A DNA stretch of 64,000 bases from assembly GCA_025041175.1 (NCBI GenBank), contig JAKCFJ010000003.1, positions 248,001-312,000 of the forward strand. Direction: 5' to 3'. This document shows, one piece after another, positions 18,208 to 22,768 of this stretch. Below the pieces are notes generated by a model, which was not told the origin of the DNA, ran no database searches, and worked only from the letters and a program-made list of their open reading frames with translations. The position numbers were made by a program, and so were the translations under genes. This DNA comes from Halobacteriales archaeon YIM A00010 (GTDB taxonomy: Archaea; Halobacteriota; Halobacteria; Halobacteriales; Haloarculaceae). How positions within the stretch are numbered: position 1 is the stretch's first letter; each line of letters opens with the position of its first letter.

Positions 18208-18849
18208 CTACTCTGTCAGATCCGTCCCACTGCGGGTATTGCTTGCTCTATCCTCAGAATCGTCCGAATTGGAGTTGTCGGAGCTATCCGAGTCGGAGTT
18301 GGAAAGGGACGTGTCGGGGTTGGCGGCGTCCGGACTCACAGCCTCAATCGTGATCTTGTCGGAGAGATTGGCACCCATCGTTTCATCGCTGGCATCGATC
18401 TTGATACCAACATCGATAGTCTCCCCAGGTTTAATCGACCTACTGATGTCCTCCTTCCCACCGTCACTGTCGTAGAGGGAAATAGTGTCCCCACTGCTAC
18501 TTTTTGCCGTGACCTCTACAGTCTGCGTACCTTGGTTGACAATAGTGAAGACGTTGTCAAACGTGGTGATGGATTCTGGATTGACACCCTGGCCTCCTTC
18601 AGATGTCTCCGTTTCTCCATTGAATTTAATTTGAAGTTTTCCGCTCTCACCGTTTTGCATTGCGAACTGGCCGTTACTGTTATCTCCCTCGTGGGGTTGG
18701 AGACCGAGATACGCGTTCTTGTCACCCGCAACGTTGACCTCGGCGGTCCGTTCTGTCTGTACGCTTGAGAAGGCGCCCGTGGCGGTGACCAGGGACGCCG
18801 CAACGACGATCGTGACCAATGCTAGGAGCTTTCCTCGTGGTATGTACAT
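18208..18849 (-). CDS. Secreted DUF1102-like surface protein
   Basis: Protein of 213 residues with a class-I-like signal segment (GKLLALVTIVVAASLVTATGAFS). Immediately after it comes the pattern GAFSSVQTERTAEVNVAGD, typical of haloarchaeal DUF1102-like exported proteins. The body is beta-rich, and the tail is a low-complexity Ser/Asp/Asn stretch (from about 180). I start at the ATG at 18849 because the signal begins there; the open frame extends upstream only because a 21-bp repeat (7 codons) is free of stops. Related proteins often sit beside a signal peptidase, as here. A filament or cell-surface role is inference. Confidence 0.7.
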   Translation of the reverse strand: MYIPRGKLLALVTIVVAASLVTATGAFSSVQTERTAEVNVAGDKNAYLGLQPHEGDNSNGQFAMQNGESGKLQIKFNGETETSEGGQGVNPESITTFDNVFTIVNQGTQTVEVTAKSSSGDTISLYDSDGGKEDISRSIKPGETIDVGIKIDASDETMGANLSDKITIEAVSPDAANPDTSLSNSDSDSSDNSNSDDSEDRASNTRSGTDLTE

Positions 18850-18879
18850 GGATTGTGTTGGTTGTGTTGGAATCCACGT

Positions 18880-18893
18880 CCGACGCGCGTCGG
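18880..18893 (-). promoter_or_regulatory. Palindrome in the leader of the DUF1102-like gene
   Basis: Perfect 14-bp palindrome CCGACGCGCGTCGG about 31-44 bases before the start codon. It would fold as a hairpin in the transcript leader if transcription begins from the TATA-like AATACAAAG at about 18928-18939, or act as a protein site on DNA. Confidence 0.35.
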
Positions 18894-18942
18894 GCGGGTT
18901 CCTACACAACCCCACGGCCTGGGGGTACTTTGTATTGGTGTG

Positions 18943-19000
18943 CTTGAAAATCTTCAAGCATTGCTTGAAGATCTTCAAGGTTGGCTTGAAACCGGTTTCA
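18943..19000. promoter_or_regulatory. Three palindromic operator-like sites at exact 21-bp spacing
   Basis: CTTGAA begins at 18943, 18964 and 18985, exactly two helical turns apart. The units are CTTGAAAATCTTCAAG (18943-18958), the perfect 16-bp palindrome CTTGAAGATCTTCAAG (18964-18979), and TGAAACCGGTTTCA, a perfect 14-bp palindrome at 18987-19000. They abut a TATA-like element for the leftward DUF1102-like gene and lie in the control region shared with the rightward DUF7344 gene. An additional inverted pair ATAGTTCA (19012-19019) / TGAACTAT (19099-19106) lies further right. Cooperative binding on one DNA face is implied. Confidence 0.6.
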
Positions 19001-19206
19001 TTCAGTTCACGATAGTTCAAAACCGATTTAGTACCTTATGGACACCGTATCTATCCGCACGAACAGCGAGAATAGACGGATATAAACCGGAAACTAAATG
19101 AACTATAGACAGATTTAAATATCGTTGGCAATGACTCGTACTATCTGGTGAGTTGCCCTCTAGACGGCTGGCCCCGTGTGGGTCAGCGTTGTTTCCGCAG
19201 TCATGC

Positions 19207-19803
19207 ATGAATCAAGGACATTCGCAGGCACGGCAGGGAACAGAAATAAAACCGACAGGAACATCGCTAACGAAGGACACGTTGTTTCAGCTCCTTGGGA
19301 ACCGCCGTCGACGGTAGGCGATCAGATACCTCACCCACAACGAGCACGCGCAGCTCGGGGATCTTGCCGAGCAGATCGCTGCGTGGGAAGCAGGCATCCC
19401 GGCCGAACAAGTGACGGCACAACAGAGAAAGCGCGCGTACACGTCGCTCCAACAAACCCATCTTCCGGCGCTCGAGGAGGCCGGCGTCATCGACTTTTCC
19501 GTCGAGAGCGGTGACATCGACGTGACCGAACAGATGGAGACGCTAGACATCTACCTCGAGGTCGTCCCCACACACACCATCCCGTGGAGCGTGTACTACC
19601 TGGGCGTCGGTCTGGTTGGCTATGCGGTCGTTCTAGCGATAACGCTGATCGGGGCGTGGCCCCTGACTGCGATTCCTGCCCAGGGGTGGGCGCTGTTGCT
19701 CAGCCTCACGATCACGATCTCCGGCCTCATCCACACCTACCGTATCCACACGATGCGTCTCGGTAGTCATACAACGCCTCCGGAAGTGAAACACAACCCA
19801 TGA
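19207..19803 (+). pseudogene. DUF7344 protein interrupted by an amber codon
   Basis: From the ATG at 19207 the frame reads a short leader, then the DUF7344 start (SLTKDTLFQLLGNRRRR), a TAG at 19315-19317, then AIRYLTHNEHAQLGDLAEQ and the family core QRKRAYTSLQQTHLPALEEAGVI. Two membrane helices follow at the C-terminus (about 145-190 of the full frame). Without the TAG the protein would be 198 residues; a Tyr codon would fit at that position. DUF7344 is a haloarchaeal winged-helix-like domain, so this is probably the membrane-anchored regulator of the locus. Possible explanations are a nonsense mutation, a sequencing error, readthrough, or restart at the GTG at 19411. It overlaps the next gene by ATGA. 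Confidence 0.7.
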
Positions 19804-20408
19804 GACGCACCAATTCCGAACTCAAATACCTCAGTATGGCTTTCATCGCCTGTGGTCTAGTTCTTGCGGCGACGGGGATGGGAGCGTTCAGCACCGCGAC
19901 GACAGAACAGGAGGCGTCCGTCGACGTTGCGGAGGAGTCGGCGTTCCTCGAATTCGAATCTGCAGACCCGACAGTGTCCCGAACCGGAGTGGACCACTCG
20001 GTCGGTCAGCTCCCCGTGATCGGACAGAATGTGGTAGGAAACGTCGATAACGGCTCACAGGTTCCACTTGGAACGCTCACGAACCACTTTTCCGATTCCC
20101 TCACATCGATCGAGGTCACTGTTTCCGAGGACGGCTCCGAGGGCGTCTCCGCTGACGGCTCTGCGGATATCACGGTTCGAAACCCGACCGTCGCGGACGA
20201 TTCGATCTCCTCGGGAGCCTCCAGCCAGCTGACGGCCACCGTCGACTGTGCCACCACGACGGAGACGACAGGGACGGTGAACCTCTCCATCGAGGCAACG
20301 GGATCGTCCATCTCGGTCTCGACCACACAACAGGTAGAAATCACATGCGCGGGAGGACCGTCCCAAGTGGGAACGGCCAACCAGACGACACAACCGCTAC
20401 AACCATGA
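19800..20408 (+). CDS. Secreted DUF1102-like surface protein (second)
   Basis: Protein of 202 residues: a signal segment (SMAFIACGLVLAATG) leading straight into MGAFSTATTEQEASVDVAEES, the same post-signal pattern as the protein at 18208-18849. A Thr/Ser-rich beta-type domain follows, with two Cys (about 150 and 183) that could pair. It is coupled by a four-base overlap to the DUF7344 gene and lies 88 bp before the signal peptidase gene. The arrangement resembles bacterial TasA-SipW operons and archaeal bundling pili, where a dedicated signal peptidase processes the fibre subunit. That parallel is inference. Confidence 0.7.
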   Translation: MRRTNSELKYLSMAFIACGLVLAATGMGAFSTATTEQEASVDVAEESAFLEFESADPTVSRTGVDHSVGQLPVIGQNVVGNVDNGSQVPLGTLTNHFSDSLTSIEVTVSEDGSEGVSADGSADITVRNPTVADDSISSGASSQLTATVDCATTTETTGTVNLSIEATGSSISVSTTQQVEITCAGGPSQVGTANQTTQPLQP

Positions 20409-20495
20409 CGTGGCGTCCGGTAGCGACCGTCCGCGGACAGCCCAGCGTCTGCGATGGGAGCGATCCAGATCGGATGGGTAAAACCGTAGCATAGA

Positions 20496-21662
20496 ATGGT
20501 TCGACGCTGGATCGGAACGGCGCTGCAGATCGCTCTCGTCCTCGCGGTCGTGGCCATCGCGGTGGGACAGTTCGTCGGACAGCCGGTGTTGCTGGCGTAC
20601 GTCACCAGCGACAGCATGGAACCGACGCTGTCGCCAGGTGATGGATACATCGTGCTCCCCTCGGCGGTTACTGACTCCCCGGAAGAGGGCGATGTCATCG
20701 TCTTCAACGCCAAGACGCTCAACGAGGGGAACGGAGGACTCACAACGCACCGGGTCGCTGAGAAGACGGACCGGGGGGTGGTCACGAGGGGAGATGGGAA
20801 TCCATTCACCGACCAGGAGGCCGGTGAACCCCTCGTCAAGAGCCACCAAATCACTGGGAAGGCAGTTCTCATCGGCAACCAGCCGATCGTGATCCCGCAG
20901 CTCGGAACGGCGTTCACTGCCATCAGGGAGGCGATCACGAGCGCACAGCGCTCGGTAGCGATGGCGTTGGGCACACGGTCGCTGCTGGGCACGCAGGGAC
21001 TCGCGTACTTGCTGTTCGGTGCCGGCATTCTGCTCTACATCGGGAGTGTAATCGCCGAAGGCGACAGTTCGAGATCTCCACGACGGAAGCGAAAGCGCAA
21101 ACGCAAACGCACCCGACGGGTGCCCAAACTAGTGGTCGCGCTCGCGCTCGGAGGAGTGCTCGTCGCCTCGTTGACGGCAACGATGACAGTTGCCGGCGGT
21201 GTACAGGAGTTCGGCGTCGTCAGTGCCGAGCAGGATATCGGCGGACCGTCCGTCATTGCCAGTGGAGAGACCGAGCGACTCAATTACAGCGTTCCGAACG
21301 GTGGCGTCCTGCCGGTCGTCGCCTACGTCGATCCCGCTAGTGAGGGGGTAGAGACCCCCGACGAGAGCGTTATCGTCGGACCGGGAGAGCAACAAACCGT
21401 CGGTATTGAACTCTCTGCCCCGGAGGAAACGGGATACTACCCACGGTACGTCGCCGAGCATCGGTATCTGGCGATCCTCCCTCCCTCGTTGATCGACTTC
21501 CTGTACCGTCTGCATCCGTGGCTACCGGTGATCGTTATCGACGCGCTGGTGCTCGGTGCGTTTCTGGCGGTGGTGATGCCACTGCTCGGACGGGGATACC
21601 TCCGGCCGCGCCGGAGTCGGAACTCGCTCGTACGGCGCATCAAACGGCGATTGAGATACTGA
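20496..21662 (+). CDS. Archaeal signal peptidase I with polybasic linker and extra C-terminal domain
   Basis: Membrane serine peptidase of the archaeal/ER (Sec11) type. After an N-terminal helix, the nucleophile is about Ser40 (TSDSMEPTL), the base is about His85 (GGLTTHRV, replacing bacterial Lys), and the Asp is about residue 100 (RGDGNPF). The core ends near 150 and a second helix follows at about 168-185. An unusual stretch at 196-208 is almost entirely Lys/Arg, then come another helix, a beta domain of about 100 residues, and a last helix with a basic tail. At 388 residues it is longer than a plain Sec11 core. Position next to two secreted proteins suggests a dedicated processing enzyme. 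Confidence 0.85.
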   Translation: MVRRWIGTALQIALVLAVVAIAVGQFVGQPVLLAYVTSDSMEPTLSPGDGYIVLPSAVTDSPEEGDVIVFNAKTLNEGNGGLTTHRVAEKTDRGVVTRGDGNPFTDQEAGEPLVKSHQITGKAVLIGNQPIVIPQLGTAFTAIREAITSAQRSVAMALGTRSLLGTQGLAYLLFGAGILLYIGSVIAEGDSSRSPRRKRKRKRKRTRRVPKLVVALALGGVLVASLTATMTVAGGVQEFGVVSAEQDIGGPSVIASGETERLNYSVPNGGVLPVVAYVDPASEGVETPDESVIVGPGEQQTVGIELSAPEETGYYPRYVAEHRYLAILPPSLIDFLYRLHPWLPVIVIDALVLGAFLAVVMPLLGRGYLRPRRSRNSLVRRIKRRLRY

Positions 21663-21691
21663 ATGTGAATCATCCGATAGGTGTCTAACTG

Positions 21692-22768
21692 ATGGATTCG
21701 AACCGACAAACACGGCTCAAGGTACTGATCAATGATTACTTCCTCGTTATCGCGGTGGTTCTTGTCATCGTCGCGGCAGGGGGAGCGTGGGCGACGTACT
21801 CGACAGTACTTTCTCCTGGAACCCACGTAGAACGTCAGCCAGTCTCCGCGTGGCAGGTTGATGGCGGCTTCAACCACAGCGGAACGGTCGTCAACGACTC
21901 GCTGGTCTTCGATGAGGGAGATGTCCGCAACGACCGAATGTTCTACATCACGAATTCGACGCCGACGCTCAACGGGTCATTTTGGTTCCAGCTCGGTGGA
22001 TCATCCGGAAACGCGACGGTATCGACGGAGGCTCACATCGCCGATTTCGCCCACTATCAGGAGAAAGACGACGAGACAGAGGAGGTAACCCAGCGGCGCA
22101 TCTGGCAGAACAAACGCGCGATCGCTGCCAACGTGACTGAACTCCAAGCCGGAGAAACGAAGAACACGACGTTCTCGGTCGACGCCGACCAACTCCGCGA
22201 TCGCAAACGGAACCTCCACGAAGAACACAAATCTCTGTATCAGGTGGCTGATATTCGAACGCAAGTGTTCGTCACGACTGAGGTCAACGGCACGGTCGAT
22301 GGGTATCCCGTCGATCGGACGTTCAACTACACGCTTCCGATCAACAGCACGATGGATTATTTCGTGGTCTCGCCGACCCGGTCGCCCGACGAACGGGTGA
22401 CGATCGCCCAATCCAAGGAGGTACCGAATCAGCCCGGGACCGTACCGCTGGTGGGGTCGATCGCCGTCCTGCTCGTTCCGCTTGCCGGGTTACTCGGGCT
22501 GTTCTACGGACGGCAGAACGACTGGTTCGATGTTCCGGAGGAGACACGCACCGACATCCAACACGCGAAGCTCCAATCCGAATTCGACGACTGGGTCACG
22601 ACGGGATCGATCCCAACGGACAAGGATCGATCGACGATCGAGGTCGACTCCTTAGAGGGGCTCGTGGATGTCGCGTTTGACTCCAACCGGCGCGTCATCG
22701 AGGACGCAGACACGGGCGTGTACGTGGTCCGAGACAACGGCGTCTGGTACCAGTACACGCCGGAGTAG
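21692..22768 (+). CDS. DUF5305 membrane protein
   Basis: Protein of 358 residues with a signal-anchor helix (about 14-35), a large extracellular beta-type domain with many N-x-S/T sequons, a second helix (about 252-272, VPLVGSIAVLLVPLAGLLGLF), and a cytoplasmic tail ending in a small domain (SNRRVIEDADTGVYVVRDNG). This matches the haloarchaeal DUF5305 family, often found beside signal peptidase I genes. It starts 29 bp after the signal peptidase stop, so it is probably on the same transcript. It may assist assembly or processing of the neighbouring surface proteins; its biochemical role is unknown. Confidence 0.75.
   Translation: MDSNRQTRLKVLINDYFLVIAVVLVIVAAGGAWATYSTVLSPGTHVERQPVSAWQVDGGFNHSGTVVNDSLVFDEGDVRNDRMFYITNSTPTLNGSFWFQLGGSSGNATVSTEAHIADFAHYQEKDDETEEVTQRRIWQNKRAIAANVTELQAGETKNTTFSVDADQLRDRKRNLHEEHKSLYQVADIRTQVFVTTEVNGTVDGYPVDRTFNYTLPINSTMDYFVVSPTRSPDERVTIAQSKEVPNQPGTVPLVGSIAVLLVPLAGLLGLFYGRQNDWFDVPEETRTDIQHAKLQSEFDDWVTTGSIPTDKDRSTIEVDSLEGLVDVAFDSNRRVIEDADTGVYVVRDNGVWYQYTPE

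Follow-up and report, generated by a model that had tools for sequence, protein, structure and literature searches.

Among the described surface fibres, the closest to the locus considered here is the Tafi pilus of haloarchaea, which is represented by a solved structure (PDB 9p0a, with the entry title "Structure of Natrinema sp. J7-2 Tafi pilus") and by curated NCBIfam models (TafA, TafC, TafE and TafF); no description of Tafi was found in the literature searched on archaeal fimbriae and polymorphic toxins. Among the loci compared, one (L065) encodes a near-identical homologue of the 9p0a protein (394.8 bits over 214 aa), its genes being arranged as subunit, second exported protein, peptidase and DUF5305; in another (L054), proteins that exceed the TafA, TafC, TafE and TafF cut-offs are accompanied by DUF7344, DUF5305 and a peptidase. 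Given these two loci, this kind of fibre is already known, and the first, sequence-only reading of the present DNA, which took it for a possibly undescribed system, has to give way on that point to the existing structure and models. Other points of reference are the TasA/TapA/SipW system of Bacillus, in which the mature TasA protein starts with Phe, the bundling pili of Pyrobaculum (7ueg), and the thread of Sulfolobus (7pnb). The thread assembles without need of the class III peptidase, and a signal peptidase I site is predicted in its subunit (PMC9715654).

The locus is found in a stretch of 64,000 nucleotides, called here the window, from a genome whose genus is probably Halocatena. Its features are as follows:

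18208-18849, minus strand: P0001, an exported DUF1102/TafE-like fimbrial subunit or adapter (PF06510)
18905-18993, minus strand: structured leader upstream of P0001, conserved and folding strongly as RNA (z = -5.3)
about 19207-19803, plus strand: DUF7344 gene, with a winged-helix and a membrane part (PF24035; TAG-interrupted)
19800-20408, plus strand: P0002, an exported Ig-like protein with two conserved Cys, paired with DUF7344 (weak TafC similarity)
20496-21662, plus strand: P0003, signal peptidase I with a C-terminal membrane-anchored beta domain (TIGR02228)
21692-22768, plus strand: P0004, a DUF5305 membrane protein (DUF5305 match at 1.6e-40)

All five genes claimed at first are present at these positions, and they are grouped as had been described, that is, an exported pair with DUF7344, signal peptidase I and DUF5305. 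P0001 is divergent from the other four (minus versus plus strand), and these form a run, DUF7344, P0002, P0003 and P0004, with spacings of -4, +87 and +29 bp. The GAFS...V.VA pattern said to be common to the two short exported proteins is equally real: written as GAFS-x(6,14)-VxVA, it occurs in 2 of the 254 window ORFs of at least 80 aa, namely P0001 and P0002, against 0.01 occurrences expected per window from shuffled proteins. What had been overlooked is a TAG at 19315-19317, which interrupts DUF7344 in frame after 36 codons; with the stop masked, the gene matches PF24035 at 2.6e-27. DUF7344 is intact in the relatives L080, L083, L084 and L085, and truncated near its C-terminal end in L082 (4751-5206), so that the interruption would be either a decay of the regulator in the genus or a sequencing error. 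A PHROGs search gave no meaningful match.

P0001 matches DUF1102 (PF06510) at 3.8e-8, above the cut-off; it has the signal peptide MYIPRGKLLALVTIVVAASLVTATGA, after which the mature part is predicted to begin with FSSV, and a C-terminal tail rich in Ser and Asp. The TafE model scores 36.4 bits on it, below the curated cut-off of 155, and its match to 9p0a, which is 4.3e-8 for the single sequence, becomes 1.5e-28 for a profile of the family built from 51 relatives. The AlphaFold2 model of the mature protein is all-beta, with a mean pLDDT of 85, and the Foldseek matches include FimA (1e-3), a Pyrobaculum bundling pilus (2.6e-3), the Sulfolobus thread (1.4e-2) and Tafi (1.8e-2), all of them weak, since the E-values start at about 1e-3 and the TM scores stay below 0.5, a level at which MSP domains score alike; TasA is not among the 50 structural matches listed. 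The FimA variants matched by the model are self-complemented. Residues 1-10 of the mature protein are less ordered (mean pLDDT 63 in the same prediction), and F1, R8 and D17, which lie in the N-terminal stretch, are among the best conserved residues of the protein; from this model we infer that the loose, conserved N-terminus may be donor-strand-like.

For P0002 no Pfam family matched, and the TafC model gives 2.8e-9 and 36.6 bits, below a curated cut-off of 410. Its family is exported, has two conserved Cys and often adjoins DUF7344. The P0002 model (pLDDT 75) reaches a TM of about 0.4 to its best matches, among which are the Ig-like fimbrial chaperones FaeE, CsuC, DraB, Caf1M and FimC. Since TafA and TafF have no match over cut-off anywhere in the genome, the major subunit is uncertain; judged by its sequences, the locus in the window is a Tafi-like set that has diverged and been cut down, and from which TafA and TafF are missing.

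Elsewhere the same families are found enlarged. In other genera, TafE-type domains occur with added parts, parallel-beta-helix-like in L061 (2184-4460, with a NosD match) and PKD in L072 (9899-11662), and the curated TafC of L054 (4983-6269) has a lectin-like Laminin_G_3 domain; these TafE/TafC-type proteins with added domains, together with that of L067 (12658-15096), are candidate tip adhesins.

The signal peptidase P0003 is above the TIGR02228 cut-off and has the catalytic residues S40, H85 and D100/D106 of the Ser-His-Asp type. Across 40 peptidases, Ser40, His85 and Asp106 do not vary, and Asp100 is 97% conserved. No other archaeal-type signal peptidase in the genome reaches the cut-off, the one further match, on another contig, being weak. 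The C-terminal membrane-anchored beta domain of P0003 recurs among the homologues, and the signal peptidases of such loci, mostly of 330-395 aa, differ from SipW in having this extra domain. The remaining membrane protein, P0004, has two membrane segments, an external beta-rich domain and a cytoplasmic tail. DUF5305 was found in 40 of 59 related genomes, and 40 DUF5305 loci were read, the window included (L085 and L086 being one sequence in two records): a signal peptidase lies within 5.5 kb of DUF5305 in 37 of them, and TafE/TafC-like exported proteins lie within the same distance in 38. By chance, the adjacency of peptidase and DUF5305 would be about 1%, an estimate in which few such peptidases per genome are counted. 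In other genera, 66 TafE-type proteins of less than 300 aa were counted, and 39 of them lie within 10 kb of DUF5305. Homologues mostly without a neighbouring signal peptidase, which would have spoken against the first reading, are therefore not what the survey from DUF5305 shows, and the proposal of a fibre locus with its own signal peptidase gains from the conserved neighbourhood and from the solved pilus that its homologues build, even if novelty can no longer be claimed for it.

We consider, with a probability of roughly 0.78, that the locus encodes a Tafi-type fimbria set, pared down and diverged, which works in the following manner. P0001 and P0002 would be exported through Sec, and P0003, as the peptidase in the locus with its catalytic residues intact, would cleave on the N-terminal side of the conserved Phe in GAF. 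The released P0001, a predicted beta-sandwich with a loose N-terminal strand, would then polymerise or attach by donor-strand complementation, with P0002 as a minor, capping or chaperone-like component and with DUF5305 anchoring or assembling the fibre at the membrane, while DUF7344 would be a local regulator, broken in this strain. Finally, toxin-like passenger proteins in the genus likewise begin with a P0001-type domain, so that the fibre may carry cargo. On this account, DUF1102, DUF5305 and DUF7344 are placed together in one haloarchaeal fibre locus, which offers concrete proteins for tests of their roles.

Two other explanations of the locus have to be set against this. That it is a biofilm matrix fibre of the TasA/SipW type, acquired or inherited as such, is suggested by the Ser-His-Asp peptidase, by the short, exported and beta-rich proteins encoded next to it, whose predicted signal peptides are followed by Phe, and by a weak SipW similarity (6.4e-6); however, the SipW score of P0003 is 25.9 bits for a cut-off of 190, no TasA or SipW-cognate family matched, and the nearest sequence relatives are the haloarchaeal Tafi proteins, so that membership in that system was rejected and we find this origin very improbable. 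The likeness to TasA first proposed survives in the kind of peptidase and its neighbours, and fails at the SipW cut-off; the resemblance would be one of analogy only. It is also unlikely, if less so, that there is no fibre at all, but a small envelope or S-layer-associated secreted set with a private processing enzyme, as the want of TafA and TafF matches over cut-off and the resemblance of P0002 to Ig-like chaperones or adaptors rather than pilins would allow; against this, P0001 is homologous to the subunit of a solved pilus, and the gene neighbours are shared with a locus whose Taf set is over cut-off.

The part of the results that is new, and most worth following, lies outside the coordinates of the locus. 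The TafE model finds six further proteins in the genome, all longer than P0001, here called passengers. Their genes in the window genome (G000, C1), numbered within each locus, are:

L012, 7101-8957: passenger gene
L013, 8682-10787: passenger gene
L014, 7250-8854: passenger gene
L015, 7124-8890: passenger gene
L016, 8152-10377: passenger gene
L017, 8715-9851: passenger gene

In the 23 passenger proteins examined, from six genomes of the same genus, the P0001-type adapter domain forms the N-terminus and the C-termini are variable, with a median identity of 0.50 over the N-terminal 170 aa as opposed to 0.15 over the last 120 aa. The small genes downstream of the six in the window genome look immunity-like; at L016 there are, besides, an apparent orphan tail and a second small gene. 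In two relatives a passenger adjoins the P0001 orthologue within the fimbria locus. A general location of passengers in the fimbria locus was rejected, as 3 of the 26 long TafE matches in the genus are within 10 kb of DUF5305, a count that includes the duplicated record G006 (G002 and G006 each include a contig of 3,915,224 bases and share genes at identical coordinates, and are thus not independent samples).

The tails can be sorted further. Class A (14 passenger proteins) has helical repeats, and a family of small proteins with two apparent membrane segments is present at 12 of the 14 class A loci; in all, this family has 21 copies in 15 loci, of 61 searched, and every one of the 15 holds a passenger gene, which is broken in one case, and one of the 15 comes from a duplicate record. 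Class B (5 passenger proteins) has an invariant GW.H...RH motif and weak matches to BECR nucleases (EndoU 0.037, PBECR1 0.004), and the L014 tail matches PBECR2 at 3e-5, just under the curated cut-off. In other haloarchaea, class B tails are attached to unrelated N-termini, TSP3-repeat proteins included (L181, L182, L183, L184, L185, L186 and L187). PADLOC gave no match for the passenger proteins. By their sequences they look like putative polymorphic toxins built on a fimbrial adapter; what they have in common with the enlarged TafE/TafC-type proteins of other genera is the plan of an adapter whose cargo can be exchanged.

A second connection between P0001 and the passengers is the leader. 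It is composed of the palindromes TTTCAAGC/GCTTGAAGATCTTCAAGC, the element CAATACAAAG and a CCCC..GGGG hairpin, and a 65-bp element of it has five sites in the genome, at three of which a passenger gene follows directly; in relatives it likewise precedes passenger genes and the orthologues of P0001. Sites were recorded in the window and at L013, L015, L016, L084, L082, L085, L148, L157, L158, L160 and L091, the last being the fifth site of the genome, where none of the surrounding ORFs examined is of the TafE type. In the L149 leader an insertion lengthens the central palindrome/hairpin with further complementary arms. Rfam has no match for the leader. Its presence before both P0001 and passenger genes suggests common control of subunit and cargo, in which it may act as a DNA operator or as RNA.

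The locus might mainly be a platform for the display or release of adapter-toxin proteins in the genus, with P0001 as a toxin-free subunit capping or linking them. The six passengers of the genome within the 23 of six genomes, the two relatives with a passenger beside the P0001 orthologue, N-termini about 50% and last 120 aa about 15% identical, nuclease-like tails that in other haloarchaea follow unrelated N-termini, the confinement of the two-membrane-segment family to passenger loci, and the shared leader all point in this direction; nevertheless, 23 of the 26 long TafE matches in the genus are far from the fimbria locus, and the adapter domain could serve secretion alone. We regard this possibility as serious but doubtful; as it overlaps with the Tafi-type reading, the confidences given to them do not sum to one. 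The clade of Halocatena and "Actinarchaeum halophilum" YIM 93972 is reported to form hyphae and spores (PMC10067837). As a tentative proposal, which we would not expect to hold in full, in these mycelium-forming haloarchaea the adapter domain could have been turned into a delivery or display module of putative toxins, which the private signal peptidase would process, which would be joined to Tafi-like fibres, by docking or capping, through donor-strand complementation, and which would be made with P0001 under the shared leader. The passengers suggest how an archaeon could present toxins on a surface fibre, in a lineage of hyphae and spores where kin discrimination could matter.

In summary, the window shares with Tafi the homologous subunit family, a signal peptide ending in GAF, and the neighbours signal peptidase I, DUF5305 and DUF7344; it differs in having no TafA or TafF over cut-off, in subunits far below the TafE and TafC cut-offs, in its reduction to two exported proteins, and in a P0002 without the lectin-like domain carried by the L054 TafC. 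With TasA/TapA/SipW it has in common short beta-rich exported proteins, a Ser-His-Asp signal peptidase in the locus and a mature N-terminal Phe, which is predicted for the window proteins, but there is no family-level sequence match, DUF5305 and DUF7344 are additional, and the peptidase has a further C-terminal membrane-anchored domain. The bundling pili and the thread are weakly resembled by the predicted P0001 fold, and likewise show no family-level sequence match. As for polymorphic toxin systems, those of archaea having reportedly been surveyed in mBio in 2019, the passenger proteins resemble them in a constant N-terminus followed by a toxin-like C-terminus that varies, and in tail modules common to unrelated N-termini, and the small genes beside them look immunity-like; they would differ in that the delivery module is a fimbrial adapter domain.
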